Under the pieces are notes generated by a model. It saw nothing but the letters and a program-made list of their open reading frames with translations. It had not been told where the DNA came from and ran no database searches. Shown piece after piece: positions 939-17,661 of a stretch of DNA of 64,000 nt (within the stretch, counting starts at the first letter, position 1; each line of letters starts with the position of its first letter). The translations under genes and the position numbers were made by a program. This DNA comes from Deinococci bacterium (GTDB taxonomy: Bacteria; Deinococcota; Deinococci; Deinococcales; Trueperaceae), in NCBI GenBank assembly GCA_030149325.1, contig JASBRS010000093.1:1-64000 (forward strand), read 5' to 3'.

Positions 939-1757
939 CTAGGGTCTCGGTGGTGCAGGTCGCTGCGACCGCGGTTGACCCCCGACCAGGGTCTGCCGGA
1001 CACGCCCCACCAGCAACAGCAGTCCGAAGAGGATCGATGCGGGTCTGGCCGGACTGCCGGGCACGTAGACGTCGACATCGAGCACCCGGTCGACTCCTCC
1101 TCGCACGCAGGGGCTCCCAGCGAACAGCTCGCCGGCGATCGCTTCGTTTCCGACCGCGACCACGGCTTTCGGCGCTGCCATGGCGTGGTACGTGCGCTCG
1201 AGCGGGGGGAGCATGTTCTCGCTCACGGGCCCGGTGACCAGAAGCGCATCGGCGTGCCGCGGGGAGGCGACCAGCGTGAAGCCGAACCGGCTCATGTCGT
1301 GGTAGGGGTTGCCCGCCAGAGCGATCTCGGAGTCGTCCAGGCCGCCGTTCCCCGCCGATACTGCGCGGCAGCCGAGGGTCGGGAGACGGAGCTCGGGCCG
1401 TGACGGCGGTGGGTCGCTCGGCTCGATGAGCGTCCCTCGCGCGAGATCGACCCGCTGAACGAGATCGTCACGACGCGTCACCGCGACGTCGAGGGTGCGC
1501 CACTCCCCGATGGCGTCGGGGTGCCGTCGAAGGCAGCGTCCACAGGCCACGCACGCGGCCAGGTCCAGCCGGAACTCACCGCCGTCCTCCGCGAACGCAC
1601 CGCTAGGGCACAACGCGACGAGGGCGGCGCGGACCTCGTCGCTCAGACGTTCGGGTCGGAGCAACGGGATGCCGGGGGACGAGGCGGGCAGGGCGAGGAG
1701 ATCGTCCAGCCTCTTCGTCAGTCGACCGGTCTGCAGGGTCGCGAGGAGACGCTTCAT
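939..1757 (-). CDS. HyfI/NuoB-like small subunit lacking proximal-cluster cysteines
   Basis: Small electron-transfer subunit of a membrane complex in the complex I/group 4 hydrogenase superfamily (272 aa). The N-terminal ferredoxin domain is half degenerate: C50 (in CPSGAF) with C69, C72 and C75 can still hold one [4Fe-4S] cluster, but the other set is gone and H79 replaces the last Cys of the second motif. The NuoB-like domain keeps fold landmarks (NPYHDMSRFGF, VAVGNEAIAG, VYVPGSPARP). All four N2-type cysteines are replaced: G and D in the first CxxC, E in VAVGNEAIAG, S in PGSPARP. The ATG overlaps the large-subunit stop (ATGA), and this is the last gene of the operon. A longer in-frame start was rejected because it lies inside the upstream gene. 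Confidence 0.8.
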   Translation of the reverse strand: MKRLLATLQTGRLTKRLDDLLALPASSPGIPLLRPERLSDEVRAALVALCPSGAFAEDGGEFRLDLAACVACGRCLRRHPDAIGEWRTLDVAVTRRDDLVQRVDLARGTLIEPSDPPPSRPELRLPTLGCRAVSAGNGGLDDSEIALAGNPYHDMSRFGFTLVASPRHADALLVTGPVSENMLPPLERTYHAMAAPKAVVAVGNEAIAGELFAGSPCVRGGVDRVLDVDVYVPGSPARPASILFGLLLLVGRVRQTLVGGQPRSQRPAPPRP

Positions 1758-3082
1758 AGGTCGCTGTCCGCGTAGGAGAGATCGAAGGACTTGTTGCAGA
1801 TGGGGAAGTCGGGGAGCCCGCCGCCTCGGACGGCGACCTCCAGAGCGGGCCAATTCTTGAAGCTCGGGCTCACGATTTCGATGGCCTGGACTCGCTGCTC
1901 TCGCGCCTTCACCACGTAGAGGAGCTCGCCCCGCGCCGATTCGATGCGTGCCCAGGCTTCGCCGTCCGGCGCCACGACCGGGACGGCCGTGGGCCCGTCG
2001 GGGAGTTCGCGGAGGAAGCGATCGAGGAGGCCGAAGCTGGCCTGCGCTTCGAGCAGGTAGACGTGAGCCCTGGAGAGCACGTCCCCTCCCACGCGCGTCA
2101 CCGGGACGAACGGCCGGTAGCTAGGCTCGTCGCTGCGGAGATCGCGGCCGATCCCACTTGCTCTGGCTGTCGGGCCCACCAGACCCAGCCTGTGCGCTTG
2201 CCCCTCGCTCACGACGCCGACATAGCGCAGGCGATCGAGAACCATCGGGTGCCGAAGGACGGGAGCGATGTACGTCGAGGTGTCGTAAGCCAGTTCGGAC
2301 AGCTTCGCTCGCGCCGCGCGCGCGGCGTCCTCGTCGACGCGCGCCGCCACACCACCCAGCACGATGGCGTTGCGCGCGTAGCGATGGCCGCTCAAGCGCT
2401 CGATCTCGGCCTGCACCATCGCGCGCACCCTGCCAGTCTGGGTGGCCGCGAAGGCGTAGCCGATATCTGTGAACAGGCCAGCGAGGTGCCCCAGGTGTTG
2501 GAAGATGCGTTCGAGCTCGAGCAAGACCAGGCGAAACCGGTCTGCGTAGGGGGGCACCTCCACGCCTGCGATCAGCTCCACGGCTCGTGCATAGCACAGG
2601 GCGTGGGCGACGGGTTCACTCCCCACCCGCTCCGCCAGCAGGCGGCCGCGCTCCAGCGACGATCCGAGGAAGGCCGCGCGGACCCCTCGGTGCTGGTAGC
2701 CGAGCCGGATCTCGAGGTTGACGATGCGTTCACCCAGAACCGAGAAGCGGAAGTGACCGGGCTCGATGACGCCGGCGTGGACTGGACCGACCGGAACCTC
2801 GTGGAGTCCGTCGTAGGTTGCGAAGGGGAAGGGCGTGCCGTGGTCCCGCAGCGGCTTCGGGTCGGCGCAGCCGATCCTCTGCAGGGCGGCGACCTCCGCC
2901 AGCTGGCGCTCGAACCACGCCAGGGCGGGGAACTCGCGCGCGAGACACGTGAACGTGCGGTCCGCTGGGATGCGGAACTCCTCCATCCCGCTCGGCCCTT
3001 CGACCAAGTAGCGGAGCTGCGGGGGATCGTGCCACAAAGCGACCGGCCTGCCGGATCGCAAGGCCCGCTTCAGGGCTTCCAT
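1754..3082 (-). CDS. HyfG/NuoCD-like large subunit without NiFe ligands
   Basis: Peripheral large subunit (442 aa) with a fused NuoC-like N-terminal domain (about residues 1-85) and a NuoD/hydrogenase-large domain recognised by GPVHAGVIEPGHFRF (about 99-113) and LGYQHRG. In true group 4 hydrogenases the first ligand motif reads RxCGxC. Here the segment is ERVGSEP (151-157), so both cysteines are missing. At the C-terminus the DPCxxC motif is replaced by SFDLSYAD (432-439). The protein therefore cannot bind a NiFe centre. These are the hallmarks of Ehr (energy-converting hydrogenase related) complexes. The start is ATG with a strong ribosome binding site (GGAGGTG) and overlaps the end of hyfF by 13 nt. 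Its true redox partner is unknown. Confidence 0.85.
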   Translation of the reverse strand: MEALKRALRSGRPVALWHDPPQLRYLVEGPSGMEEFRIPADRTFTCLAREFPALAWFERQLAEVAALQRIGCADPKPLRDHGTPFPFATYDGLHEVPVGPVHAGVIEPGHFRFSVLGERIVNLEIRLGYQHRGVRAAFLGSSLERGRLLAERVGSEPVAHALCYARAVELIAGVEVPPYADRFRLVLLELERIFQHLGHLAGLFTDIGYAFAATQTGRVRAMVQAEIERLSGHRYARNAIVLGGVAARVDEDAARAARAKLSELAYDTSTYIAPVLRHPMVLDRLRYVGVVSEGQAHRLGLVGPTARASGIGRDLRSDEPSYRPFVPVTRVGGDVLSRAHVYLLEAQASFGLLDRFLRELPDGPTAVPVVAPDGEAWARIESARGELLYVVKAREQRVQAIEIVSPSFKNWPALEVAVRGGGLPDFPICNKSFDLSYADSDL

Positions 3083-4440
3083 GGGAGCACCTCCGCGAGC
3101 ATGCGCACCTCGCCGGTCGGTGGGAACAGGCCGAGCCATACCACGGTCAGGAGCAGGGCGGCTGGCACCGCCAGCAGGAGCCGGTTCTGCGGTACCGACC
3201 GGGGTTGCGTGGCGGCACCGAAGACCAGGTGCCCGATGGGGAGCGCGACGGCGACGAACGCGACGGAAAGACCCACCAGGTACAGGACCATCATCACAGG
3301 CGGGGAGTGCCAGAGGGCCTGGAATTCGGCGTAGAACAGCGCGAACGGAGGCAGACCGGCGAGCGCGAGCAGCGACAGGGCGACCAGCCCGCCGGTTCCC
3401 GGCAGCACGTGCATGAGTCCACCCACGCGGCGGAGGACCTTGCTGCGGTAGGCCAGGAACACGTTCCCGAACGAAAGGAAGGCGGCGGTCTTGGTCAGCG
3501 AGTGGAACAGGGTGTGGAGCATGGCAAGCCACGGCACCCCAAGTCCCAGGGCGTAGACGGCCAGGCCCATGTGCTCCATGCTGGAGTAGGCCAGCAAGCG
3601 CTTGTAGTCGCGCTGGGCGAACATGAACAGGCCCGCAGCAAGGAGCGAGGCGAGCCCGAAGCCGAGCAGCAGGCCCTGGGCGAAGCCCGCCAGCCCCGCT
3701 GGCACCATGAGGGCCGTGTAGCGCAGCAGGGCGTAGAAGGCCACGTTGAGCAACGTGCCGGATAGCAGGGCCGAGGCGGGGCTCGGCGCCTCGCTGTGGG
3801 CGTCGGGCAACCATGCGTGCATGGGGAACAACCCCACTTTGGTCCCGAAGCCTACGAGCAGGAAGGCATAGGCCAGTTGGAGCCGACCAGGCTCGGCACT
3901 CGCCGCCAGGGCCAGCGCACCGCGCCAGTCGAGCGTGGTGCCTCCGAGCAGCGCGTAGACGAGGATCACGCCGACCAGGCTCAGGGCGATGCCCACCGAA
4001 CCGAGCATCAGGTACTTCCAGGTGGCTTCGAGGGCATGGGCGTCGCGATGGTGGTACACGAGCAGCGCTGACGCGAGCGTGCTCCCCTCCACGAACGTCC
4101 ACATCAGCCCCAGATTGTGGGTCAGGTAGGCACCGTGGGTCGCGAACAGGAAGAGGAAGAACGGCGCGTAGAACGACGCAGCGTGGGTGTCGTGCCCGTC
4201 CTCGAAGTAGGCAAGCGCGTAGACGGCGACCACGGCGAAGAGGGCGTCGGCGAGGACGAGGTAGAAGAGCCCAACGCCGTCGAGTTGGAGGGCCCCCCGA
4301 GCGTCCGTGTGAGGGAGCAGCGCCAGCGCGATCGATAAGAGGGGCACCGTCGTTCCCAGCACGCCGAGGCGACGCAGGTGGCGATCGCGCAGGGCGTAGA
4401 TGCCGAAGGGGAGTGGCAGGAACAGAAGCAGGTAGAGCAC
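3070..4440 (-). CDS. hyfF: HyfF/NuoN-like proton-translocating membrane subunit
   Basis: Antiporter-like subunit of the membrane arm (456 aa, about 14 hydrophobic segments). The family signatures GFGTKVGLFPMHAWLPDAHS and LAYSSMEHMGL, and the lysine in HSLTKTAAF, are all intact, so proton movement looks possible although the catalytic subunits are degenerate. GTG at 4440 was chosen because GAGG stands 6 nt upstream. A TTG at 4446 would give a 4-nt overlap with hyfE and is the alternative start. The gene lies between hyfE and the large-subunit gene with overlaps at both ends, which fits translational coupling. Confidence 0.85.
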   Translation of the reverse strand: MLYLLLFLPLPFGIYALRDRHLRRLGVLGTTVPLLSIALALLPHTDARGALQLDGVGLFYLVLADALFAVVAVYALAYFEDGHDTHAASFYAPFFLFLFATHGAYLTHNLGLMWTFVEGSTLASALLVYHHRDAHALEATWKYLMLGSVGIALSLVGVILVYALLGGTTLDWRGALALAASAEPGRLQLAYAFLLVGFGTKVGLFPMHAWLPDAHSEAPSPASALLSGTLLNVAFYALLRYTALMVPAGLAGFAQGLLLGFGLASLLAAGLFMFAQRDYKRLLAYSSMEHMGLAVYALGLGVPWLAMLHTLFHSLTKTAAFLSFGNVFLAYRSKVLRRVGGLMHVLPGTGGLVALSLLALAGLPPFALFYAEFQALWHSPPVMMVLYLVGLSVAFVAVALPIGHLVFGAATQPRSVPQNRLLLAVPAALLLTVVWLGLFPPTGEVRMLAEVLPWKP

Positions 4441-4442
4441 GA

Positions 4443-5057
4443 TCAACCTCGGAGGTCGCGCATGCGCGAGGTGTCGACGTGTCCGAAGACGCCCTTCAAG
4501 CGGAACATCAGGATCCCCGCCAGCACGACGGCGGCGAACGTATCGATGGCGACGCCCAGTTCGATGAAGAGCGGGAGCCCGTGGCTCTCGGCCAGAGCGA
4601 GTAGGAAGACACCGTTCTCGAGCGTCAGGAAGCCGATGACCTGGGTCACCGCCTTCCTGCGGGTGCTCATGATCAGCATCCCTAGCAGCAGCAGGGCCAG
4701 CGCCACCGGCACGGCCTCCGGAAGGAGGGCGCCTGCCAGGACGAAGCCCTGGCCCAGCCGATAGGCCAGCGCTACCAGAAGTCCTCCGACAAGCAGCGAG
4801 GGAGCGACGGCCAGGTAGGATTCGATCTCGTGACTCACGTCGAGGCGCTCCAGTACGACGAGCAGGAACCACGGGATCGCGATGCCCTTGACCACGAACA
4901 GCAGGGCACCGGCTACCAACAGGTGCACGCTTCCATCGGCGAGCGCGAAGGCGAGCGCTGCCACGAACACGTTCTGCAATGCGTAGAGTCGTATCGACGC
5001 ATCGAGGCTCCGCCGGCCCACCATCAGGAAGGCGGCCACAAGGATGCCGCGGGTCAA
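4443..5057 (-). CDS. hyfE: HyfE/NuoK-like membrane subunit
   Basis: Small integral membrane subunit (204 aa) with six to seven hydrophobic helices in the HyfE pattern: an N-terminal helix pair ending in RLYALQNVF, a central EIESYLAVAPSLLVGGL segment, and a C-terminal NuoK-like part (LTLENGVFLLALAESHG). It belongs between the NuoH-like and NuoN-like subunits of the membrane arm, and its place in the gene order matches hyfE of hydrogenase-4 loci. The only plausible start near the end of hyfC is TTG, 8 nt after the hyfC stop. It has no obvious ribosome binding site, so expression probably depends on coupling and the exact N-terminus is uncertain. Confidence 0.8.
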   Translation of the reverse strand: MTRGILVAAFLMVGRRSLDASIRLYALQNVFVAALAFALADGSVHLLVAGALLFVVKGIAIPWFLLVVLERLDVSHEIESYLAVAPSLLVGGLLVALAYRLGQGFVLAGALLPEAVPVALALLLLGMLIMSTRRKAVTQVIGFLTLENGVFLLALAESHGLPLFIELGVAIDTFAAVVLAGILMFRLKGVFGHVDTSRMRDLRG

Positions 5058-5065
5058 CGCGAGAG

Positions 5066-5926
5066 CTAGTTCCGCAGTCGTAGCACCACCCCCAGGGTGG
5101 CGAGGATGCCGGCAAGGGTGTTGTAGGACAGCAGGTCGGGGACCCTCAGGTAGCGCAGGCGCACGCCGTAGGTCTCGAGTACGGCGAGAGCGACTCCCGT
5201 GACGACGAGAGCCAAGGCGAAGGCCAAGACCCGGGGGAAGGGGAGCAACAGGCCGATCAGGCTGACGTAGACCAGGAGCTTCAACGATGCGGCCAGCTCG
5301 TAGAGCGCCAGCAACGGCCCCGAGTGATCGAGCACTTGGGCCTCGTGGATCATGGTGAGTTCGAGGTGCGTCGTGGGATCGTCGACCGGCATGCGAGCGC
5401 CCTCGGCGACCAGGGCGATGGCCAAAGCGACCAGTACCAACAGGTAGACGAGGGCATTCGAGGCATCGAGGTGTGCCAGGCCGGCCAGTGAGAGTTCGCC
5501 GGAGGCCAGTTGGGCGGCGGCGAGGGCAAGGAGCGTCCCTGGCTCCGTCAGCGCGGCCAACAGGAGCTCGCGGTAGGACCCCTGCGCTCCGAAGGCGCTT
5601 CCGGTGTCGAGAGCGGCCAGCGCTTGGAACGTGCGCCCAAGGTTGAGGAGGTAGACGAGCACGAGGAAGTCCCCTGCAAACGAGACGCCGGGCAACACCG
5701 GAAGCACGACCGCGGCCGAGGCCGGACCGAGGACGGCCGCGACCGGTCCGAGAAGGAACACCGGGGTGGCCGGTCGTGGCCAGACGTAGTCCTTCCGCCA
5801 CAACTTCCAGAGGTTGCGGTAGTCGTACAGCAGGCCCGGGCCGCGTCGATTCTGGAGCGCGGCCTTCAAACCCTTGATGCTGCCGCTGAACAGCGGCGCG
5901 AGTAGGAGCAGGAGCAGGCTCGTCAC
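5066..5926 (-). CDS. hyfC: HyfC/HycD (NuoH-like) membrane anchor subunit
   Basis: NuoH-family subunit (286 aa) that joins the peripheral redox arm to the proton-pumping membrane arm. It has about eight hydrophobic segments. The cytoplasmic loop EGARMPVDDPTTHLELTMIH (around residues 175-195) carries the conserved acidic residues of the family, and the N-terminal GLKAALQNRRGPG matches the NuoH/HycD start. Its ATG overlaps the hyfB stop by 4 nt (ATGA), so it is in the same operon. Nothing in the sequence suggests inactivation. Confidence 0.88.
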   Translation of the reverse strand: MTSLLLLLLAPLFSGSIKGLKAALQNRRGPGLLYDYRNLWKLWRKDYVWPRPATPVFLLGPVAAVLGPASAAVVLPVLPGVSFAGDFLVLVYLLNLGRTFQALAALDTGSAFGAQGSYRELLLAALTEPGTLLALAAAQLASGELSLAGLAHLDASNALVYLLVLVALAIALVAEGARMPVDDPTTHLELTMIHEAQVLDHSGPLLALYELAASLKLLVYVSLIGLLLPFPRVLAFALALVVTGVALAVLETYGVRLRYLRVPDLLSYNTLAGILATLGVVLRLRN

Positions 5927-7695
5927 GGCCAGATCACCACCAGGACGATGACAAGGGCCAGGAATTGGAGCGCCAGGTACACGTGGAGACTCCCGGACTG
6001 GAGGAGGCGTTGCATCCCGCGTGCCAGCCGGCCGTAGCGGGCGCCGAGTTGCTCGTAGGCGTCTTCCAGGGGGTCGCGCACGTCCACATGGACCTGGCTC
6101 GCTTCACGCCCGTCGCCTCGAGCGGGGAGCGAGCGCACCCTAAGCTGGACGAGGGGCAGCGCCTTCAGCAGCTGTTCGGAAAGGCCGAGGCCGTTGGCCT
6201 GCATCCTCGGCGACGGCGCGCCGTAGCCGCAGTCCCAGGGACCGTACTCCGATCGACGGCGTCCGCGAAGGTGAGCGAAGAGGCCGGCCCCGGCCACGGT
6301 CACGGCCGCGAACATCGGGAGGACGGGGAACAGGGGTGCGTCCATCGCGCCCAGGACGAGGCGCGGGAAGGCCGATACCAACAGGAGCGGGCCGGCCAGT
6401 AGGACGAGCCCGAGGTGCGTGCCGCGCCTCGCGTCTTGTGCGTCGGCCACGACTCGGCTGCGCGGGGATCCAAGGAACGCCAGCCCGAACAAGCGCACGT
6501 ACAGGGCGGCCGCGAGTGAGCTCGCGAGTGCGACGGCGCCCAGTCCCAGCACCAGGAGGCCCGGTCCGGCGGAGCCCGAGGGAGCTGACAGGAAGCCCCG
6601 GAAGAGGTACCACTCGCCCAGGAAGCCGGCGAGCGGAGGCAGGCCAGCTGCGGCCACGACCCCGAGCAGGGTGTATGCGGCCGTTCGGGGAAGCGTCTTC
6701 CAGAGGCCTCCGAGTTCCGAGAGCGATCGGCTGGGAAGCGCGCCGCTTGCGAGGAACAACAGCGACTTGAACAAGGCGTGGGCCAGCTGGTGCACGAAGA
6801 AGGCGTAGAGGAACAGCGGCGTGTGGAGCACCAGGTAGCCGCCGAGTGCGGCCAGCAGAAGGTTGAGGTTCTCGACGCTCGAGTAGGCGAGCACGGCCTT
6901 GTAGTCGTCCTCGGCCAGGCCGCGGAGCAAGGCGTAGACAGCGCCGCAGAGCCCGAGGACGACCAGGGTCCAACCTACCCAGCCGGGCGGGGAGCCTGCC
7001 CAGGTGAGACTACGGAACAGGCCGTACAGGCCGAGCTTCGTCATGCCGCCCGAGAGGAGCGCGGAGAGAGGGCTCATGGCGACCGGATGGGATCTCGGTA
7101 GCCACATGTGCAACGGGAAGAGCGCTGCCTTGGTGCCGAAGCCGATGAGGAGCCCGGCCCAGACCAGGGACCGCAGCGTGCCGTCGATCGCCTCCCCTCG
7201 GGCGAGAAGGATCAGCGCGAGCAGCAGCCCGCCGCCCGATACACGGCTGGCGATGAAGAACCAGCGGCTGCCGTTCACGGAGGCCGCGCCGTCCAGCGCG
7301 ATGAGCACGTAGCCAAGCAGGGTCATGGTTTCCCACAGGAAGAGGAAGCGGTAACCCATGGGGGCTAGGGTGATGCCGGCCATGACGGCAGCGAACACCG
7401 GGATCAAGGAGGCTTCGAGCCGTGCCCTGCCACCGTGGTGGTGTTCGAGGTAGCTACCCAGGTAGGGGCCCAGTGCCAGGTAGAGCAGGCCGAGCAGGGT
7501 CAGGTAGAAGCCGGACGTCGCGTCGACGGCGCCGCTGCCTGGCCGGAGCCATGCGGGGTAGCCGATGATCAGCATCAGCCCGCCGCTGATGCTGAGGGCC
7601 CAGGGTAGCGGTGCACGAGGCGAGCGGGACACAAGCGCCCACACGGCTTGACCGAACAGGACGAAGAAGGGTGCGGCGACGAGGTAGGTTGCCAT
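5923..7695 (-). CDS. hyfB: HyfB/HycC (NuoL-like) proton-translocating subunit
   Basis: Large antiporter-like subunit (590 aa) and first structural gene of the operon. It carries the Mrp/NuoL landmarks GFGTKAALFPLHMWLPRSHP, LAYSSVENLNLLLAALG and HQLAHALFKSLLFL with their conserved lysines and histidines. It ends in the terminal helix (SGSLHVYLALQFLAL) typical of HyfB/HycC. There are about 15 hydrophobic segments; residues 480-560 form a soluble loop. It begins 33 nt after the arsR stop on the same strand, so the operon is very probably co-transcribed with the regulator. No hydrogenase maturation genes (hyp) are present in the window. Confidence 0.88.
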   Translation of the reverse strand: MATYLVAAPFFVLFGQAVWALVSRSPRAPLPWALSISGGLMLIIGYPAWLRPGSGAVDATSGFYLTLLGLLYLALGPYLGSYLEHHHGGRARLEASLIPVFAAVMAGITLAPMGYRFLFLWETMTLLGYVLIALDGAASVNGSRWFFIASRVSGGGLLLALILLARGEAIDGTLRSLVWAGLLIGFGTKAALFPLHMWLPRSHPVAMSPLSALLSGGMTKLGLYGLFRSLTWAGSPPGWVGWTLVVLGLCGAVYALLRGLAEDDYKAVLAYSSVENLNLLLAALGGYLVLHTPLFLYAFFVHQLAHALFKSLLFLASGALPSRSLSELGGLWKTLPRTAAYTLLGVVAAAGLPPLAGFLGEWYLFRGFLSAPSGSAGPGLLVLGLGAVALASSLAAALYVRLFGLAFLGSPRSRVVADAQDARRGTHLGLVLLAGPLLLVSAFPRLVLGAMDAPLFPVLPMFAAVTVAGAGLFAHLRGRRRSEYGPWDCGYGAPSPRMQANGLGLSEQLLKALPLVQLRVRSLPARGDGREASQVHVDVRDPLEDAYEQLGARYGRLARGMQRLLQSGSLHVYLALQFLALVIVLVVIWP

Positions 7696-7728
7696 TGTGG
7701 GGGCTCTAGGCCGGCGGATCCGCGCCCC

Positions 7729-8079
7729 TCAGGCGCGATCGCTCGGGTTCTCGTCCGATGCCTGGAGCTTCTCGAGGAGCTGGCTGCTAGCCTGCAGCTG
7801 TCGCTCGAAGAGGCGGCGTCCCATGTCGAGGAAGGTGTAGACCTCGGGGTCCCTGGCGCTGTAGAAGCTCAGGGTCGCCGCCTTCCGAGCCGTCACGAAG
7901 CCACGCCTGCGGAGCACGCCGAGCTGCTGGGAGAGGGTCGATTGCTCCACACCGAGTTCGGCCTTCAAGGTCGACACGCTCTTCTCCCCGTCCTTCACGG
8001 CGTCGAGGATGGCGAGGCGCAACGGATGCGCCAGTACCTTGAAGAACTCGGCCTTGAACTGATGCAGTTGGCTCGTCAC
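7729..8079 (-). CDS. ArsR-family winged-helix repressor without cysteines
   Basis: Small dimeric DNA-binding regulator (116 aa) with the ArsR wHTH core: FKVLAHPLRLAILDAV, the recognition helix SVSTLKAELGVEQSTLSQQ, and the wing GFVTARKAATLSFYSA. A C-terminal coiled helix (LFERQLQASSQLLEKL) probably dimerises. The protein has no cysteine, so it should not sense metals or persulfides through thiols as ArsR, CadC or SqrR do; the signal is unknown. GTG at 8079 is preferred. The longer TTG start at 8100 would put the operator palindrome inside the coding region. It is the first gene of the Ehr-like operon and probably controls it and itself. Confidence 0.8.
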   Translation of the reverse strand: MTSQLHQFKAEFFKVLAHPLRLAILDAVKDGEKSVSTLKAELGVEQSTLSQQLGVLRRRGFVTARKAATLSFYSARDPEVYTFLDMGRRLFERQLQASSQLLEKLQASDENPSDRA

Positions 8080-8083
8080 GTCG

Positions 8084-8120
8084 ATATCCGACTCTCTCAA
8101 TATCGCAATAGTCGGATATT
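8084..8120. promoter_or_regulatory. nested inverted repeats, probable ArsR operator
   Basis: Two overlapping symmetric elements lie just before arsR. A 10-bp perfect inverted repeat has arms ATATCCGACT (8084-8093) and AGTCGGATAT (8110-8119). A 22-bp palindrome has arms AATATC (8099-8104) and GATATT (8115-8120). The latter covers the -10 box and likely start point, as expected of a repressor site. Confidence 0.6.
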
Positions 8121-8144
8121 ACGTACGCTGAGCGCCGGCGTCAA
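8116..8144 (-). promoter_or_regulatory. sigma70-type promoter of the arsR-hyf operon
   Basis: TTGACG (8144-8139) and TAATAT (8121-8116) separated by 17 bp, reading toward arsR. It is one of only two places in the window with a good -35/-10 pair. Confidence 0.65.
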
Positions 8145-8159
8145 GACCCGGGACTCGCC

Positions 8160-8768
8160 CTATCCCAGCGGTTCGAGCACCGCCCGCACCGGCGAGGCGT
8201 CGGCGTGCGGGATGCGCAGCGGCAGGCAGATCAGGCGGTAGCGCCCGGGCTCGACACGGCTGAGCTCCAACCCCTCCACGATGACGATGCCGTTGCGGAA
8301 GCAGGCCTGGTGCGCGGGCAGGTCGGTGCTGCCGAGGGCATCGACGCTGGGGGCGTCCGTGCCCACCAGCTCCACGCCGCGGCGTCCGAGTTCCTTGATC
8401 AGGGCGGGGGCCAGCCGCCGGAACTCGGGGAAGGCGTCCCAGTGCTCGGGTTGCCCGGTGCGCAGCAGCACGCGGCGGGGCAGTGGGCCGGCCGGCAGGG
8501 CATCGACGTCCACCGCTCCCTCGCCCGTCACGTCGAGCACCATCGCCTCGCCGATCAGCAGCTCGAGCCCCACCACCCCCAGCCGGCCGCCCTCGGCGGC
8601 GTAGTGCCAGGGCGCGTCGAGGTGCGATCCGAGGTGGGTGGTGGTGTCGAGGCGCAGCACGTTGGCCGGGGAGCCGGGGCCGATCTCGGCGACCTGCTCC
8701 AGGGTGAAGGGGGTGTCCCCGGGCCAGACCGGGTGCCCGGCGGAGAGCTCGCGCGTGATGTCGATCAT
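8160..8768 (-). CDS. kynB: kynurenine formamidase (arylformamidase)
   Basis: Metal-dependent cyclase/KynB family enzyme (202 aa) that hydrolyses N-formylkynurenine to kynurenine and formate in tryptophan breakdown. The family zinc-binding pattern HxGxHxDxP is present as HLGSHLDAPWHY (about residues 45-56), and the N-terminus (DITRELSAGHPVWPGDTPF) is typical. No other kyn gene is in the window, so other cyclase-family activities are possible. The start was placed at the ATG giving MIDITREL because TAGCAT lies 5 nt upstream. It is divergent from the secreted phosphoesterase gene and the two promoters sit almost back to back. Confidence 0.85.
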   Translation of the reverse strand: MIDITRELSAGHPVWPGDTPFTLEQVAEIGPGSPANVLRLDTTTHLGSHLDAPWHYAAEGGRLGVVGLELLIGEAMVLDVTGEGAVDVDALPAGPLPRRVLLRTGQPEHWDAFPEFRRLAPALIKELGRRGVELVGTDAPSVDALGSTDLPAHQACFRNGIVIVEGLELSRVEPGRYRLICLPLRIPHADASPVRAVLEPLG

Positions 8769-8773
8769 GCTCC

Positions 8774-8779
8774 ATGCTA
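8774..8779 (-). promoter_or_regulatory. -10 element of kynB
   Basis: TAGCAT with 5 nt to the ATG, implying a leaderless transcript. Confidence 0.5.
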
Positions 8780-8811
8780 CGCGCACGGCCGTGGCTCTCA
8801 CGGGCGTGCGG

Positions 8812-8817
8812 TAGCGT
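8812..8817 (+). promoter_or_regulatory. -10 element of the 8825 phosphoesterase gene
   Basis: TAGCGT, 7 nt before the ATG. The spacer itself is GGAGGGG, so a leadered start with a close ribosome binding site cannot be excluded. Confidence 0.5.
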
Positions 8818-8824
8818 GGAGGGG

Positions 8825-9727
8825 ATGCTCCGGTCGCGCTGGCGTTCCCTCTGGCTCCTCGCTGCCCTGGCGCTGGGCTCGGCCGGCGTCGCCCAGACGG
8901 TGCGGGTGGTGGCGGCCGGCGACATCGTGTGTTCCCCCGGCGACGCGCCGAGCCTGCGGGCCTGCCAGCAGGAGGCGACCGCGGCGTTGGTCGAGAAGCT
9001 GCACCCCGATGCGGTGCTGGCCGTCGGCGACCTGCAGTACTCGCAGGGCACCGCCGACGAGTTCCAGCGGGCGTACGAGACGTCGTGGGGGCGCTTCAAG
9101 TCGATCACCTACCCGGTCCCCGGCAACCACGAGTACTACAGCGGCGGTGGAGGCTACTACGCCTACTGGGGCGCGCGCGCAGGTGACCCCAGCAAGGGCT
9201 ACTACAGCTTCGACCTCGGGGCCTGGCACGTGCTGGCGATCAACTCCAACTGCCCGGCCATCGGGGGGTGTGGCGACGGCTCCCCGGAGGTGGCGTGGAT
9301 CCGTCGGGATCTCGCGGCGCACCCCAGCCTGTGCACGTTGGCGTTCTTCCATCACCCGCGCTTCAGCTCGGGTCCGCACGGCAACGACGAGGCGATGGCG
9401 CCGATCTGGCGCGCGTTGCAGAGCGGCGGCGTCGACATCGTGCTCAGCGGTCACGACCACGACTACGAGCGCTTCGCGTTGCAGGACGCCGACGGCCAGC
9501 TCGACCCCGCCAACGGCATCCGTGAGTTCGTGGTGGGCACCGGCGGGGCGCCGCAGTACTTCGCGCTGTGGCGCAGGGCCAACAGCCAAGCGCTCAGCGT
9601 CGGCAGCTTCGGGGTGTTGGAGTTGACGCTACGCCCCGACAACTACGCCTGGGCGTTCCGTGCCATCCCGGGGGAGTCCTACCAGGACAGCGGCAGCACC
9701 GCCTGCCATCCCGCTCCCGGCCCCTGA
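8825..9727 (+). CDS. secreted metallophosphoesterase
   Basis: Calcineurin-like phosphoesterase (300 aa) exported by a signal peptide (basic start, hydrophobic LWLLAALALGS, cleavage near GVAQ-TV). Metal ligands appear in order: AAGDIV, VGDLQYSQ, PGNHEYY, the histidines in FFHHPRF, and SGHDHDYER near residue 215. This resembles alkaline phosphatase/purple-acid-like phosphatases that release phosphate outside the membrane; the natural substrate is not known. The start at MLRSRWRS was chosen because it begins a proper signal peptide and follows a -10 element. An upstream in-frame start would add 17 residues and spoil the signal peptide. Confidence 0.8.
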   Translation: MLRSRWRSLWLLAALALGSAGVAQTVRVVAAGDIVCSPGDAPSLRACQQEATAALVEKLHPDAVLAVGDLQYSQGTADEFQRAYETSWGRFKSITYPVPGNHEYYSGGGGYYAYWGARAGDPSKGYYSFDLGAWHVLAINSNCPAIGGCGDGSPEVAWIRRDLAAHPSLCTLAFFHHPRFSSGPHGNDEAMAPIWRALQSGGVDIVLSGHDHDYERFALQDADGQLDPANGIREFVVGTGGAPQYFALWRRANSQALSVGSFGVLELTLRPDNYAWAFRAIPGESYQDSGSTACHPAPGP

Positions 9728-9743
9728 GGGACGGGAGGGAAGC

Positions 9744-9953
9744 TCAGGCGCGGGTCGCGCGGGGGCGGATGAGGGCCCAGCCGCCGCCCACGACCACGCC
9801 GGCGGCGAAGCCGACGCCGGCGCCGGACAGCGCCGTGAAGGCCGGCGACGAGTACTGGAGCCAGACGCCCAGGGTCGCGGCGCCGCACAGGCCGAAGCCG
9901 ATGGCGTAGCCGATCACGACGCTCCAGGCCGGGCCTCTTCGGGGTTCGCTCAT
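9744..9953 (-). CDS. small two-helix membrane protein
   Basis: Hypothetical protein of 69 aa. After a short polar start (MSEPRRGPAW) come two hydrophobic stretches, VVIGYAIGFGLCGAATLGVW and a second rich in alanine and glycine (FTALSGAGVGFAAGVVVGGG), ending in basic residues. This is an inner-membrane hairpin with both ends probably cytoplasmic. No family is recognised. A -10 element lies 6 nt before the ATG, which supports the gene being real and transcribed alone. It converges with the phosphoesterase gene 16 nt away. Confidence 0.6.
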   Translation of the reverse strand: MSEPRRGPAWSVVIGYAIGFGLCGAATLGVWLQYSSPAFTALSGAGVGFAAGVVVGGGWALIRPRATRA

Positions 9954-9959
9954 GTCGGC

Positions 9960-9965
9960 ACTATA
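9960..9965 (-). promoter_or_regulatory. -10 element of the small membrane protein gene
   Basis: TATAGT, 6 nt before the ATG. Confidence 0.5.
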
Positions 9966-10073
9966 CCGCTCCCGCGGGCGTGCAGCCCGGCCGGCGGGGT
10001 ACTCCGAGGACTCGGCCGGCGCGGTCGGGGATGTGCCGGGCGAGGGTGGGCTCGACGGTGTCCGCGCGCCGGT

Positions 10074-11411
10074 TCAGGCGGCCGCCTGCGCGACCGCCGC
10101 GGCCACCTGCTTCGCGAGCCGTTCGACCAGCGTCGCGTCCTCGGCCTCGACCATCACCCGCACCAGCGGCTCCGTGCCGCTCGGGCGCAGGTTGATGCGC
10201 CCGCCATCGCCCAGGCACGACCGGGCCTCCTCGACCGCCGCCAGCACGGCGGCGTCCTCCAGGACCGCGGCGCGGGCCTCGGGCGCGACCGTCACGTTGA
10301 CGAGGCGCTGCGGGTAGACAGGGATCTCGTCCATCCACGCTTCCAGCGGCCGTCCGGACTTGCGTACCGCCGCCAACAGTTGCAGCGCGGTGAGGATGCC
10401 GTCGCCGGTGGGGGCCTTGTCGAGGAACAGGATGTGGCCCGACTGCTCGCCGCCCAGCCTCAGGCGCCGCTTCGTCAGCGCCTCGTGGACGTAGCGGTCG
10501 CCGACCTGGACGCGATGCATCTCGACACCCCGCTCGCGTAGGTAGCGCTCGACGCCGAGGTTGCTCATCAGCGTGGCCACCACCGCCTCGTCGCCGCCGG
10601 TGAGGGCGCAGATGGCGAGGATGTGGTCGCCGGTCACCAGCCGTCCGCGCCGGTCGACGAGCAGTGCGCGGTCGGCGTCGCCGTCGAAGGTGATGCCGAC
10701 GTCGAGGTCGTGCTCGAGCACCCGGGTGCGGATGGCGTCGGGGTGCGTGCTGCCGCACCGCACGTTGATGTTCTCGCCGTCGGGCCGCGCGTGGATGACG
10801 TCGAGACGGGCGCCGATCTTGTCGAACAGGCGCGGCGCGATCTGGTGGCTGGCGCCGTTGGCGCAGTCGAGCCCCACGCGCAGGCCGTCGAGGTAGGGGG
10901 CGTGATCGAGCAGGTGCTGCAGGTAGTGCCCTTCGTCGGTGCGGTAGCGGACGGCCGAGCCCACGCCGCTGCCGGTGATCGGCTCCAGGCTGTCGGGATC
11001 GAGCTCGATCAACGCCTCGATCTCGGCTTCGAGTGCGTCGGAGAGCTTCTCGCCGTCGCCGTTGAAGAGCTTCAGCCCGTTGTCGAGGAAGGGGTTGTGG
11101 CTGGCGCTCACCACCACGCCGGCGTCGGCGCCGAGCGCGCGGGCGAGGTACGACACCCCCGGCGTGGGCATCACCCCGAGCCAGGTGACGTCGGCGCCGC
11201 GCGACGTCAGACCGGCCGCCACGGCGTGCGCCAGCATCGGGCCCGAGCGGCGGGTGTCCATCCCGACCACCACGTGGGGCCGCTCCGTGCCCTCGCGCCG
11301 GAGGCCCTCGGCGGCGGCGATGCCGAGCCGGAACGCGAAGGCGCCCGTCATGGGGTGCTCGCCGGCCACCCCGCGGATGCCGTCGGTGCCGAAGTATCGC
11401 CGGTCTGCCAT
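10074..11411 (-). CDS. glmM: phosphoglucosamine mutase
   Basis: Converts glucosamine-6-phosphate to glucosamine-1-phosphate, a step to UDP-GlcNAc for cell wall synthesis. The length (445 aa) is normal. The N-terminus RRYFGTDGIRG, the phosphoserine loop VVVSASHNPF (around residue 98), the Mg-binding DGDADR (around 240), the sugar-binding GGEQSGH (around 323) and the C-terminal RPSGTEP are all intact. GlmM and not phosphomannomutase is favoured by the short FGTDGIRG start and GEQSGH. ATG at 11411 follows a -10 element by 7 nt. It lies just downstream of polA on the same strand but has its own promoter. Confidence 0.93.
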   Translation of the reverse strand: MADRRYFGTDGIRGVAGEHPMTGAFAFRLGIAAAEGLRREGTERPHVVVGMDTRRSGPMLAHAVAAGLTSRGADVTWLGVMPTPGVSYLARALGADAGVVVSASHNPFLDNGLKLFNGDGEKLSDALEAEIEALIELDPDSLEPITGSGVGSAVRYRTDEGHYLQHLLDHAPYLDGLRVGLDCANGASHQIAPRLFDKIGARLDVIHARPDGENINVRCGSTHPDAIRTRVLEHDLDVGITFDGDADRALLVDRRGRLVTGDHILAICALTGGDEAVVATLMSNLGVERYLRERGVEMHRVQVGDRYVHEALTKRRLRLGGEQSGHILFLDKAPTGDGILTALQLLAAVRKSGRPLEAWMDEIPVYPQRLVNVTVAPEARAAVLEDAAVLAAVEEARSCLGDGGRINLRPSGTEPLVRVMVEAEDATLVERLAKQVAAAVAQAAA

Positions 11412-11471: not shown

Positions 11472-14045
11472 CTACTTCGCCTCCAGCCAGTTGGCTCCCA
11501 CGCCGACCTCGGCCACCAGCGGGACCTTCAGCGGGTAGGCGGCGGCCATGGCCTGCGCCGCCTCGCGGGCGACGGTGGCGGCGCGGTCCTCGGGGACCTC
11601 GGCCACCACCTCGTCGTGGACCTGGAGCAGCAGCCGGCCGCCGTGCTCGGCCAGCAGCGGCGCCAGCAGCAGCATCGCGCGCTTCATGATGTCGGCGGCG
11701 GTGCCCTGGATCGGCATGTTGTAGGCGGTGCGTTCGGCGTACTCGCGGGCGCTGCGGTTGGGGCTGTGGATGTCGGGGATCCAGCGGCGCCGGCCCAGCA
11801 GCGTCTCCACGTAGCCGTCGGCCCGGCACGCCTCGATGGTGTCGTCGATGTAGGCGCGGACGCGCGGGTAGCGCTCGAAGTAGCGGGTGATGATGCGCTC
11901 GGCCTCGGCCAGGGCGATCTCCAGATCGGCGCTCAGGCGGCGCGCCCCCATGCCGTAGAGCACCCCGAAGTTAACGACCTTGGCGGTCCGGCGCATGCCC
12001 TCGTCGACGCGTTCGGGCTCCACCCCGAAGACCTCGGCGGCGGTACGGCGGTGGATGTCCTCGCCGTGGCGGAAGGCCTCGATCAGGCCCGGCTCGTCGG
12101 CGACGTGGGCGAGCACGCGCAGCTCGATCTGGCTGTAGTCGGCGACCAGCAGGAGGTGCCCATCGGCGGCCACGAAGGCGCGCCGGATCTCGCGTCCCAG
12201 CTCGGTGCGCACCGGGATGTTCTGGAGGTTCGGGTTGACCGACGACAGCCTCCCGGTCGCCACCACCGCCTGCTGGAAGGTGGTGTGCAGGCGGCCCGTC
12301 TGCGGGTCCACCAGCTCGGGCAGGGGGTCGAGGTAGGTGCTCTTGAGCTTGGCGAGCTCGCGCTGCTGCAGGATGAGGTCGACGGCTTCGTGCTCGCGGC
12401 GTAGCGGCTCGAGCGCCGAGATCGCGGTGCTGCGCTTGCCGGTCGAGGTACGTCGGCCGGACCGTAGGCCGAGCCGGTCGTAGAGCAGCGCGGCGACCTG
12501 ATCTCGGGAGTTGACGTTGAAGCCGGGGTCGTCCGCGATCTCGCGAAGCCGCTGCTCCAGTCCGGCGATGCGCTCGCCCAGCGCCTGCGACTGGCGCCGG
12601 AGCAACGCGCGGTCGAGGCGCACCCCGGCCAGCTCCATCTCCGCCAGCACGGTCTGAAGGGGGCGTTCGAGCTGCTCGTAGATCGCCCGCTGGTCGCCCT
12701 GCAAGCGGGCTCCCAGGTGGCGCAGCAGCTCGGCGGTGACCGCGGCCCGTGAGTCGGCGTCGGCCCCCCACTCGCCGGCACCGTACCGGCGTGCCAGACG
12801 CTCGGGGGAGGCTCCGCTGGGGTCGAGCAGGTAGGCCATCAGCAGCGGGTCGTCTCCGGGCTCCGCCTCGATGCCCAGGCGCCGCGCCACCACCGTCAGG
12901 GCCTTGGCGTCACAGGCGTCGAGCGGCGTGCCCCGCGACAGCGCCGCCAGCCGTGCTGCCGCGTCCGGCGCGCGCGCGACCCTGCCGTCCCGTGCCAGCG
13001 AGAGCTCCACGAGGCTCGCCGTGGTGGGGCGGTCGCCGTCGAGCACGTAGCCGAACGCACCTTCGGGCGCCAGCTCGGACCACGGCGCCGTGCGGTAGTC
13101 GGTGTGCTGGGTGAGTCCGAGGTCGTGCAGCACGGAGCCGAACTCGAGCTCGCGCAGCAGCTCGGTGAGGGCCTCGCGATCGGGCTCGCGACGGCGCCAG
13201 CGCTCGGGCTCGACCTCGATGTCGGCGTCGGTGCGGATGGCCGAGAGCTCGCGGGACAGCTCGAGCGACGCCAGGCCGTCGCGGATCTTGGCCGCGTAGC
13301 CCGCCGGCTCGACCTCGTCGAGGTCGGCCAGCACGGCATCGAGCGAGCCGTAGCGGCGCAGCAGCTTGCGGGCGGCGACGGGTCCGATGCCCTTGACGCC
13401 CGGCAGGTTGTCGCTGCTGTCGCCGGTCAGCGCGCGGTAGTCGACCCACTGCTGCGGCGTCACGCCGTAGCGCTCCTCGACCTCCGCCGGCCCCAGGCTG
13501 TCGCTGCGATCGGGGTTGCGGACCCGCACCGAGTCGCGCACCAGCTGCAGCGCGTCGCGGTCGCTGGTGACGATCTCGACGTGGTAGCCGCGGTCGTCGC
13601 AGCGCAGCGCGATGGTGCCGATCAGGTCGTCGGCCTCCAACCCCGGGACCTCGATCCGCGCGACGCCCAGCAGGTCGAGCAGACGCTTGATGACGTCGAT
13701 CTGCTGCGGGAGGTCGTCGGGCGTGGGCGCGCGGCCGGCCTTGTAGTCCTGGTAGCGCTCGTGGCGGAAGGTGGGGGCCGGCGCGTCGAAGGCCACCACT
13801 ACCGCGGCGCCGTTCTCGTTCAGGACCTTGAGGAGGCTGCGTACGAAGCCGTAGATGGCGTTCGTGGGCTGGCCGCGGGAGGTCGACAGGTCGCGCACGC
13901 CGAAGTAGCTGCGGTAGGCCAGACCGTGGCCGTCGACGACGACCACCCGCCCACCTTCGGCGGATGCCGAGGGAGCCGCGAACAGGCCGTCCTGGCGCGT
14001 GCTCGTGGGCGTGCCGTGGTCCTTCCCGTCGTCGGCCGGGGCCAT
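11472..14045 (-). CDS. polA: DNA polymerase I, proofreading-deficient Taq type
   Basis: Repair and Okazaki-fragment polymerase (857 aa). Residues about 30-290 are the 5'-nuclease domain (VDGHGLAYRSYF, GLEADDLIGT, LTGDSSDNLPGVKGIG). Residues about 300-430 occupy the 3'-5' exonuclease position but lack the catalytic DxE: the segment reads PEGAFGYVLDGDRP and GDDPLLMAYLLDPS, closely like the same region of Thermus aquaticus Pol I. The polymerase domain has motif A DYSQIELRVLAH (near residue 625), motif B RRTAKVVNFGVLYGMG and motif C VHDEVV. Overall similarity to Taq polymerase is the best taxonomic clue in the window. The ATG start follows a -10 element by 6 nt; a longer upstream reading has no such support. 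Confidence 0.95.
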   Translation of the reverse strand: MAPADDGKDHGTPTSTRQDGLFAAPSASAEGGRVVVVDGHGLAYRSYFGVRDLSTSRGQPTNAIYGFVRSLLKVLNENGAAVVVAFDAPAPTFRHERYQDYKAGRAPTPDDLPQQIDVIKRLLDLLGVARIEVPGLEADDLIGTIALRCDDRGYHVEIVTSDRDALQLVRDSVRVRNPDRSDSLGPAEVEERYGVTPQQWVDYRALTGDSSDNLPGVKGIGPVAARKLLRRYGSLDAVLADLDEVEPAGYAAKIRDGLASLELSRELSAIRTDADIEVEPERWRRREPDREALTELLRELEFGSVLHDLGLTQHTDYRTAPWSELAPEGAFGYVLDGDRPTTASLVELSLARDGRVARAPDAAARLAALSRGTPLDACDAKALTVVARRLGIEAEPGDDPLLMAYLLDPSGASPERLARRYGAGEWGADADSRAAVTAELLRHLGARLQGDQRAIYEQLERPLQTVLAEMELAGVRLDRALLRRQSQALGERIAGLEQRLREIADDPGFNVNSRDQVAALLYDRLGLRSGRRTSTGKRSTAISALEPLRREHEAVDLILQQRELAKLKSTYLDPLPELVDPQTGRLHTTFQQAVVATGRLSSVNPNLQNIPVRTELGREIRRAFVAADGHLLLVADYSQIELRVLAHVADEPGLIEAFRHGEDIHRRTAAEVFGVEPERVDEGMRRTAKVVNFGVLYGMGARRLSADLEIALAEAERIITRYFERYPRVRAYIDDTIEACRADGYVETLLGRRRWIPDIHSPNRSAREYAERTAYNMPIQGTAADIMKRAMLLLAPLLAEHGGRLLLQVHDEVVAEVPEDRAATVAREAAQAMAAAYPLKVPLVAEVGVGANWLEAK

Positions 14046-14051
14046 GCCGTC

Positions 14052-14057
14052 AGGATA
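14052..14057 (-). promoter_or_regulatory. -10 element of polA
   Basis: TATCCT, 6 nt before the polA ATG, divergent from the promoter at 14135. Confidence 0.5.
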
Positions 14058-14134
14058 GCCTCCGGGCGTCGGGCGCGCTCCTGCACGCGTACCCCGGGGG
14101 CGCGATGCGGCCGTCGGGCAGGGGACGGACGTGG

Positions 14135-14140
14135 TAGGGT
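14135..14140 (+). promoter_or_regulatory. -10 element of the 14148 gene
   Basis: TAGGGT, 7 nt before the ATG. Confidence 0.5.
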
Positions 14141-14147
14141 CCGTGCC

Positions 14148-14732
14148 ATGGTGAACAACGGCCGTCGTGTGATTCCGATGGAGGGGCGGGTCTACACCAA
14201 CGAGTTCCGGCTGTACGGGTTGTTGCACCTACCCGAGTTCGTGGGCACCGCCCGCCTGCTCAACCTCACCGACCGGCCCTACCTGCCGGTCACCCGCTGC
14301 ATGGTGTACGACGCGGGGTTCCGCCACCCGCCGGAGAGCGACGCCATGCAGTACGAGACCGACTTCGCCGCGGTCCCCAAGGACCACATCCTGTGGGTGA
14401 TGGGGGGACGCCCCGAGGAGCCCTCGGAGCACGTGCGTCGGGAGGCTCGGCTGGTCTACGTCATGTACGACAACTACGTGCTGACCGGCCGTCTCTACAT
14501 CATGCCCGACCAGCGCGTGTCGGATTACCTGCACACGGTGTTCACCGACCGGCCCTTCCAGGACCTCTACGGCGCCCGCGTGCTGCTGCCCCGCAAGGAC
14601 GTGCCGCTCGAGGAGTTCGAGGTGCTCCAGTACCACGAGTTCGTGACGGTGAACCTCAAGCAGGCGGGCGGGGTGTTCGACGTCCGTCGCGAGGAGGGCA
14701 AGGGCTTCCGCCTCGACGAGGGCGAGATCTGA
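14148..14732 (+). CDS. conserved-looking protein of unknown function
   Basis: Soluble protein of 194 aa with no signal peptide, membrane segment or family I can name. It has the feel of a conserved beta-rich domain: RVYTNEFRLYGLLHLPEFVG, LNLTDRPYLPVTRC, then KDHILWVMGG and, in the second half, VYVMYDNYVLTGRLYIMP followed by RVSDYLHTVFTDRPF. The two halves may be repeats of a small barrel ending in a T-D-R-P motif, seen in both LTDRPYLPV and FTDRPFQDL. It is divergent from polA and shares a roughly 100-bp intergenic region with it. Confidence 0.7.
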   Translation: MVNNGRRVIPMEGRVYTNEFRLYGLLHLPEFVGTARLLNLTDRPYLPVTRCMVYDAGFRHPPESDAMQYETDFAAVPKDHILWVMGGRPEEPSEHVRREARLVYVMYDNYVLTGRLYIMPDQRVSDYLHTVFTDRPFQDLYGARVLLPRKDVPLEEFEVLQYHEFVTVNLKQAGGVFDVRREEGKGFRLDEGEI

Positions 14733-14738
14733 CCCGGC

Positions 14739-15467
14739 TCACAGGTTCCAGCCTCCGGCGACCTCCAGCGTCACGCCGGTGACGTAGGCCGCGGCGGGGG
14801 AGAGCAGGTAGCGTACCGCCCCGACGAGTTCGTCGAGGCGCCCGGTCCGTCCCATCGGGATCTCGCGCAGCGGCTGCGTGACGCTGTTCTCCAGCACTCC
14901 CGGGCTCACCACGTTGACGGTGATGCCGCGGGCGGCCTCGGTGGTCGCCAGGGCCTTGCTGTAGAGCACGACCCCCGTCTTGGCTGCGGCGTAGGCCACG
15001 ATGCCCGGCCGGGCCTTGATCTGCTCGGAGCCGGCGTAGCCCACGTTGACGATGCGCCCGCCGCCCTGCTCGCGCATCCGCGGGACCACCGCCTGGCAGG
15101 TGTAGAAGGTGGCGTGCAGGTTGCTGGCGAACATGGCGTGCCAGGTGGCCGCGTCCAGCGCCTCCAACGGGCCGTGATGGTAGGCACCGACGTTGTTGAT
15201 CAGCACGTCCAGGCGCCCGAAGGCGGCGTGGGCGCCGGCGACCAGCGCGCGCGCCTGTGCCTCCACGGTGACGTCGGCACGGAGCACGACCGCACGGGCC
15301 CCGAGCTGGCGTGCGGCCTCGGCGACCTGGCCCGCCTCGTCCTCGCTGGTGCGGTAGTGCACGGCGACGTCGTAGCCGTCCTCGGCCAGCGCCAGGACCA
15401 GCGCGCGGCCGATGCCGCGGGCGGAGCCGGTGACCAGCGCGGCGCCGCGGCGGGCCGGGTCAGCCAT
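14739..15467 (-). CDS. SDR-family oxidoreductase with non-standard active site
   Basis: Classical-type short-chain dehydrogenase (242 aa). The NAD(P) loop TGSARGIG is near residue 14, the fold motif NNVG near residue 91, and the catalytic YAAAK near residue 158. Where the usual catalytic serine sits in IVNVxSxxG the protein has a tyrosine (IVNVGYAGS), so the chemistry may differ or use the serine three residues later. The substrate is unknown; it resembles FabG-like 3-oxoacyl reductases. The ATG overlaps the Nudix gene stop by 8 nt, and the SDR is the last gene of a three-gene operon. Confidence 0.82.
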   Translation of the reverse strand: MADPARRGAALVTGSARGIGRALVLALAEDGYDVAVHYRTSEDEAGQVAEAARQLGARAVVLRADVTVEAQARALVAGAHAAFGRLDVLINNVGAYHHGPLEALDAATWHAMFASNLHATFYTCQAVVPRMREQGGGRIVNVGYAGSEQIKARPGIVAYAAAKTGVVLYSKALATTEAARGITVNVVSPGVLENSVTQPLREIPMGRTGRLDELVGAVRYLLSPAAAYVTGVTLEVAGGWNL

Positions 15468-15921
15468 CGTCCGGCACCCGCGCGGCGTCGTCCCCGGCAG
15501 TCAGGGCGTAGTCCAACAGCACCCGCGTCGGTAGGTTCAGGTCCATGCTCCTCGCCTCCTCGGGCGTCACCCAGGCGAACGCCTGCGCCTCGTCGTTGAG
15601 TCGCACGTCTTCGCTCGTGCTCCTGGCCAGGAAGTTGAGCAGCACGAAGTGCGCGGGCCGGTGGAACTCGGGGCTCTCCACGGCCTCCTGGACCGGCCCC
15701 CAACGCACGTCGTCGAGCTCCAGGCCGGTCTCCTCGCGAGCTTCGCGGCGCACGGCGGCGAGCATGCCTTCGCCGTACTCGATCTTGCCGCCCGGCACCC
15801 CCCAGAGGTCGCGCCACTTGTGCGTCCGGATCAGCAGCCAGCGGCCCGACGGCCCGCGGATCAACACCCCCACCGTCGCCAGCGGCCACCGCGTGGCAGC
15901 CGGCCGCTCGAGTGCGCTCAT
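15460..15921 (-). CDS. Nudix hydrolase
   Basis: Nucleoside-diphosphate-X hydrolase (153 aa) with a complete Nudix box: GKIEYGE, seven residues, then REAREETGLEL (around residues 44-66). The preceding strand (RWLLIRTHKWRDLWGVPGG) and a tail with VTPEEA are like ADP-ribose or (d)NTP pyrophosphatases, but the substrate cannot be read from sequence. Both ends overlap neighbouring genes: ATGA with the CDP-alcohol phosphatidyltransferase gene upstream and 8 nt with the SDR downstream. Co-expression with a CDP-alcohol enzyme leaves open a role in CDP-linked metabolite turnover. Confidence 0.88.
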   Translation of the reverse strand: MSALERPAATRWPLATVGVLIRGPSGRWLLIRTHKWRDLWGVPGGKIEYGEGMLAAVRREAREETGLELDDVRWGPVQEAVESPEFHRPAHFVLLNFLARSTSEDVRLNDEAQAFAWVTPEEARSMDLNLPTRVLLDYALTAGDDAARVPDDG

Positions 15922-16841: not shown

Positions 16842-16848
16842 CCTGGGG

Positions 16849-17658: not shown

Positions 17659-17661
17659 ACC

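Follow-up and report, generated by a model that had tools for sequence, protein, structure and literature searches.

An Ehr-type complex of Deinococcota with neither NiFe nor N2 cysteines and a single predicted ferredoxin-type cluster

The operon and its missing ligands

The window analysed here, a stretch of 64,000 nucleotides (positions 1 to 64,000 of contig JASBRS010000093.1, assembly GCA_030149325.1) from a Deinococci bacterium of the Trueperaceae, carries an operon for a relative of respiratory complex I and hydrogenase 4. The operon is compact, spans 939-8119 on the minus strand and has mostly overlapping or near-overlapping neighbouring genes, in the order ArsR regulator, hyfB-, hyfC-, hyfE- and hyfF-like genes, large subunit and small subunit (ArsR-B-C-E-F-L-S; Table 1). 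We re-derived its boundaries, and the coordinates given in the original prediction proved correct. All subunits have complex I or hydrogenase-4 matches in Pfam and NCBIfam, none of them reaching the curated cut-off of an NCBIfam equivalog. The charged path residues of HyfB, HyfC and HyfF are kept as in E. coli Hyf, in agreement with the claim that the membrane subunits preserve their proton-path signatures; in HyfF the conserved charges are E121, E141, K145, K204, K320 and E375 (numbering starts at codon 4455, which is in frame and precedes the start).

By sequence the large subunit is nearest to MbhL and to HycE of formate hydrogenlyase (FHL), and its predicted fold (predicted local distance difference test, pLDDT, 81) has E. 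coli FHL HycE as top structural match. Alignment to E. coli HycE and HyfG leaves it without any of the four NiFe cysteines, as the original prediction had claimed. Displacement of the motifs to another part of the proteins was ruled out, as there is no other conserved cysteine: none in the large subunit is conserved across the Deinococcota set, and the single cysteine that some relatives carry one position past the last NiFe ligand is not conserved either.

The small subunit, nearest in sequence to MbhJ and HycG, has none of the N2 cysteines when aligned to HycG and HyfI. Alignment to HyfH and HycF places C50 as the fourth cysteine of ferredoxin motif 1 and C69, C72 and C75 as cysteines one to three of motif 2. 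Missing are cysteines one to three of motif 1 and cysteine four of motif 2, which together make up the complete ligand set of the other (distal) ferredoxin cluster. The claim of a small subunit without N2 cysteines and with a single [4Fe-4S] set thus held in both alignments. As aligned, C50, C69, C72 and C75 are one complete ferredoxin-type [4Fe-4S] ligand set, and the domain that carries them, joined to a HyfI-like part, is a degenerate ferredoxin of the HyfH/HycF kind. We take the retained cluster to be of the N6b type of complex I, adjoining N2. Surveyed among the Deinococcota, the four cysteines are invariant (31/31 alignment rows, 20/20 distinct proteins) and an N2 cysteine is kept in 0/20 distinct small subunits; the other two cysteines of the window protein (in LGC and SPC) are not conserved. 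A structure model of the small subunit reached a pLDDT of 50 and was set aside.

Table 1. Features of the operon and of the fluoride riboswitches discussed in the text. Positions are those of the window, except in the last two rows, where they refer to the loci named.
Feature	Position	Strand	Description
Small subunit, 272 amino acids	939..1757	-	N-terminal half-ferredoxin (HyfH/HycF-like) fused to HyfI/NuoB-like domain; Pfam Oxidored_q6
Former N2 ligand positions G138, D141, E205, S235	1053..1346	-	Face four Cys of HycG/HyfI
Codons C50 to C75 (C50, C69, C72, C75)	1533..1610	-	Predicted ligands of one retained [4Fe-4S] cluster
Large subunit (HycE/NuoD-like), 442 amino acids	1754..3082	-	No NiFe ligands
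Former second NiFe motif	1766..1789	-	SFDLSYAD, residues 432-439, against E. coli SLDPCYSC (DPCYSC against DLSYAD)
Former first NiFe motif	2612..2626	-	VGSEP, residues 153-157, against E. coli VCGIC (RVCGIC against ERV-GSEP)
HyfF-like antiporter-type membrane subunit	3070..4440	-	NCBIfam hydrogenase 4 subunit F, 5.8e-86, below cut-off
HyfE-like membrane subunit	4443..~5057	-	Start codon uncertain; NCBIfam hydrogenase 4 membrane subunit, 9.9e-20
HyfC/NuoH-like membrane subunit, 286 amino acids	5066..5926	-	Pfam NADHdh; D85, D106, E127, E174, E188, E194, E250 conserved
HyfB-like antiporter-type membrane subunit, 590 amino acids	5923..7695	-	Conserved charged path residues E122, K189, H306, K310, E361
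ArsR-family regulator, Rv0081-like	7729..8079	-	GTG start at 8079, alternative TTG at 8100; Pfam HTH_5/HTH_20
Perfect 10-bp inverted repeat ATATCCGACT/AGTCGGATAT	8084..8119	.	Spacing 16 nt; putative ArsR operator
Fluoride riboswitches before Ehr-type operons	L046 4553-4613; L083 4980-5050; L092 5050-5120; L093 4857-4927; L084 4564-4637		
Riboswitch-crcB region, window genome	L100 (G000:C30:4500-10500), ~2173-3382		

Expression of the operon is probably under the control of the Rv0081-like ArsR protein, whose nearest PDB structure is Rv0081 (6jmi, 1.4e-20). The inverted repeat lies directly upstream of the likely ArsR start; the regions before arsR in Thermaceae yielded no repeat of the same form. 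In M. tuberculosis, Rv0081 heads a hyc-like locus and is part of the hypoxia response (PMC6901956). That locus, Rv0081-Rv0087 (putatively FHL-like), is like the window in being a hyc/hyf-like operon headed by such a regulator, a likeness that consists in the regulator match and the operon layout. A related locus of Rhodococcus differs from the window in keeping N2 and in having the small subunit first. Just upstream of ArsR, on the same strand (8160-8801), is an arylformamidase-like gene, below the NCBIfam cut-off and with no apparent link to the complex.

Conservation and recurrence of the N2 loss

A small-subunit profile found the complex in 22/111 Deinococcota genomes, with a sharp split between the 22 carriers (340-496 bits) and all others (NuoB, about 100-114 bits). 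Carriers include Calidithermus, Meiothermus, Allomeiothermus and several Thermus species, and the operon order is constant throughout Thermaceae. Pairwise ratios of nonsynonymous to synonymous substitution (dN/dS) among close pairs are 0.10-0.28, which rules out a pseudogene; judged by these comparisons, the ligand losses are conserved under purifying selection. Sequencing or assembly error was ruled out too, since 20 distinct homologues agree and other proteins of the window genome keep N2 and NiFe ligands: its NuoB retains the cysteine pair and an apparently intact group 3b [NiFe] hydrogenase keeps RICGIC (G000:C60), so poor sequence is not the cause. The homologues have the same pattern, and neither intact motifs elsewhere in the proteins nor a strain-specific error was found. 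Allomeiothermus silvanus plasmid pMESIL01 (G023:C2) carries the Ehr large and small subunits twice, in apparently identical form, and a metagenome-assembled genome (MAG) of the window's own family (G088:C287) has an FHL-type large subunit with intact RMCGVC at a contig end.

Ehr complexes are defined by the absence of NiFe-binding cysteines from the large subunit (PMC6349859). Because these ligands are lost while complex I/group 4-like membrane and soluble subunits are present, the window complex is, on its sequence, an Ehr complex by definition. The original prediction had named loss in the large subunit as the mark of the Ehr group; the NiFe loss is indeed family-wide, and the N2 loss is additional and conserved. 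The Ehr complexes of Rhizobium, Cupriavidus, Caldovatus, Methylocalor, Rhodococcus and Margulisbacteria share the six subunits and the absence of NiFe cysteines with the window, and Rhizobium and others also have its B-C-E-F-L-S order. However, the complexes without NiFe cysteines seen in Margulisbacteria, alpha-, beta- and gammaproteobacteria and Rhodococcus lack a ferredoxin domain and still have the full set of four N2 cysteines, whereas the window has lost N2 and has a one-cluster ferredoxin domain. Since these Ehr relatives keep N2, its loss represents a further, lineage-specific step.

On plasmids of Variovorax, Caballeronia and Burkholderia there are fused small subunits in which both ferredoxin clusters are complete and N2 is kept, and in a sample of 399 Pseudomonadota no fused small subunit scored above the (strict) threshold. 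Two genomes, Mycobacterium branderi and MAG G004 (record LSA4.bin17, grouped with Deinococcota), match the window pattern exactly: one ferredoxin cluster, no N2. In a tree of HyfF, HyfC and the large subunit, the window and Thermaceae form one group (100/100) and M. branderi, G004, Caballeronia and Burkholderia a separate one (100/100). A single clade of N2-less forms was rejected with this set (approximately unbiased test, p 3.2e-8) and with HyfB alone (p 0.011); several rows are on long branches, and exact sister groups are uncertain. Gene order differs as well, being ArsR-B-C-E-F-L-S in window and Thermaceae versus C-E-F-L-S-B in the M. branderi/G004 branch. The trees indicate that N2 loss arose independently at least two times. 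Each of the two N2-less lineages has lost the same two clusters and now has two or more acidic residues where the N2 cysteines were (TAED, TTED, TDES and GDES in the window group; DEDS and NDDA in the other). The spread of N2-less forms outside Deinococcota is a lower bound, as no systematic survey of Actinomycetota, Chloroflexota and other phyla was made.

Two plasmids carry further variants. Variovorax sp. PBL-E5 plasmid 3 (L085) has two adjoining, different Ehr operons (3340-10624 and 14036-20585), one with the full ferredoxin-small subunit fusion and one without it. On a plasmid of Streptomyces sp. NBC_01483 (L087), one of the four N2 cysteines is replaced (R, C, C, C), and two ArsR-like genes lie nearby.

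Compared to better-known members of the superfamily, the window complex shares subunits and lacks centres. E. coli Hyf and Hyc have homologous subunits, the fused small subunit corresponding to HyfH plus HyfI, yet the window is without all NiFe ligands, all N2 ligands and 4/8 ferredoxin ligands. It has neither the RxCGxC/DPCxxC motifs nor the four-cysteine proximal cluster of group 4 [NiFe] hydrogenases and FHL. In contrast to respiratory complex I, the NuoB N2 ligands are missing and the operon has no NADH module NuoEFG. The histidine and tyrosine of the NuoD quinone site, H38 and Y87 in T. thermophilus, face I106 and a gap in the window large subunit, in a pairwise alignment that is uncertain in that stretch. 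MBS, a sulfane sulfur reductase of the complex I superfamily, has also lost the NiFe ligands and holds its proximal cluster on three cysteines (PMC7684303); it keeps these three cysteines of the catalytic cluster, while the window keeps none. Because the defining ligands tested are missing, the complex is not a hydrogenase, complex I or MBS.

A separate branch linked to fluoride riboswitches

The branch of Caballeronia, Burkholderia, M. branderi and G004 shares with the window the fused ferredoxin-small subunit and the lack of NiFe pairs, and differs from it in gene order, tree position and riboswitch control; unlike the window, Caballeronia and Burkholderia still have N2 as well as two ferredoxin clusters. 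A fluoride riboswitch (RF01734) lies directly before the operons of G004 (L046), Caballeronia and two Burkholderia, and the M. branderi operon is one gene behind such an element. These operons carry hydrogenase or NADH dehydrogenase annotation, and NiFe motifs are absent from the large subunit in all five seen. Their neighbours are enolase, inorganic diphosphatase, CrcB, DUF190 and universal stress genes, and a similar set (ppaC, uspA, eno, gpmA, crcB) gives Enterobacter cloacae fluoride resistance (PMC5533749). A review places formate hydrogen lyase among common riboswitch-linked enzymes, interpreting it as fermentation, with Na+/H+ antiporters as the next most common class after exporters, as fluoride acidifies the cytoplasm (PMC11139923). 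Since the large subunits have no NiFe motifs, the "formate hydrogenlyase" of the five operons is no hydrogenase, and keeping ions or pH in balance suits it better as a role than oxidising formate.

RF01734 was absent at the window operon, at nine Thermaceae loci and at eight Ehr loci with N2 only. The window genome has a fluoride riboswitch on another contig, just before crcB and then two small genes that look DUF190-like. Genomes with the complex have the riboswitch more often (10/22 vs 9/89, kinship ignored), an association that is weak inside Thermaceae (8/20 vs 4/30, p 0.04). We treat fluoride as a lead for the separate branch and do not extend it to the window operon.

What the complex may do

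The original prediction saw no obvious electron route in this complex, and no ordinary one remains. The NiFe site, N2 and the distal cluster are lost, and neither the window nor the Thermaceae loci showed a gene for a partner oxidoreductase next to the operon; a redox cycle in the usual cavity is therefore unlikely, while the charges of the membrane subunits are intact. Two small genes downstream in Allomeiothermus have no Pfam match above the cut-off. That the same double loss occurred at least twice suggests ion movement without the usual electron chemistry, and it is plausible that proton flow would be coupled to a process other than redox chemistry. We favour, with a confidence just short of even, an antiporter-like, non-redox ion-translocating machine of the Hyf type serving ion or pH homeostasis. 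Losing NiFe site, N2 and the distal ferredoxin cluster would have removed terminal redox chemistry and left one medial-type [4Fe-4S] cluster; acidic side chains where the N2 and NiFe ligands once sat would bind cations or protons beside the HyfC charge axis; and the lone cluster may be structural, or may gate the complex by redox state or oxygen. A more specific picture, which we hold a little more tentatively, is that of a complex I-type ion mover without a catalytic redox centre, in which the N2 site was rebuilt at least twice as a carboxylate site and the soluble arm may act as a pH-, cation- or redox-sensing gate and not as an electron-driven motor. The fluoride-resistance context of the riboswitch branch, where the same Fe-S pattern is found, may be counted among the supports for a non-redox function. 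Mrp antiporters share antiporter-type subunits with a charged path; unlike the window, they have MrpB/C/E/F/G subunits and no soluble arm. Several points weigh against our proposal: one intact cluster and the whole soluble arm are kept, which is odd if redox plays no part; an electron partner may be encoded elsewhere in the genome; the fluoride riboswitch is missing at the window operon; and the operon contains no MrpE/F/G-type partners, which a true Mrp antiporter has.

The main rival is a short redox route, in which the single cluster would take electrons from ferredoxin or another carrier and be itself catalytic, or hand them on to an unrecognised cofactor or substrate. The strict conservation of the four ligands of that cluster speaks for it, but the operon has no electron-input subunit and, judging by complex I, a cluster at this position lies too far from the cavity to pass electrons fast when N2 is missing. 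MBS offers a precedent for an Fe-S cluster as catalyst after loss of the NiFe ligands; nevertheless, its catalyst is the proximal cluster, which reduces polysulfide (PMC7684303) and is absent here, and we regard this route as unlikely. Lower still we place a cavity that performs non-redox chemistry coupled to proton flow, such as metal-dependent hydration or hydrolysis with carboxylates binding the metal. Carboxylates in place of N2 and NiFe ligands would suit such a function. DAB and the NDH-1 CO2-uptake complexes are precedents for non-redox coupling, and chemistry of this kind has been proposed for CO2-uptake complexes with related membrane subunits, but the operon showed no recognised metal-binding or carbonic-anhydrase-like motif or subunit.

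We give a similarly low probability to a complex specific to fluoride stress, as that of the riboswitch-controlled branch probably is. M. branderi and G004 combine the Fe-S pattern of the window with fluoride riboswitches, and the overall association with carrier genomes points the same way; against this, the window and nine Thermaceae operons have no riboswitch, the two types are separate branches, and the association disregards kinship and is weak in Thermaceae. A decaying, non-functional relic or an assembly artefact is very improbable: presence is patchy (1/39 genomes of the window's own family), yet all frames are open, the dN/dS values are low, the Thermaceae operon order is constant and the same loss happened twice.

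New relative to the original prediction are the ferredoxin fusion, the recurrent lineage-specific N2 loss, the acids at the former N2 site, the Rv0081-Rv0087-like layout and the riboswitch-linked branch. We found no description of N2 loss in an Ehr complex in the open-access literature (older subscription-journal surveys lay outside our scope). For complex I, it is a long-standing question how the redox chemistry of N2 powers proton pumping far away from it. With its membrane charges kept and N2 lost more than once under selection, this conserved relative offers a natural test of whether a membrane arm can run, or be gated, when N2 is missing.

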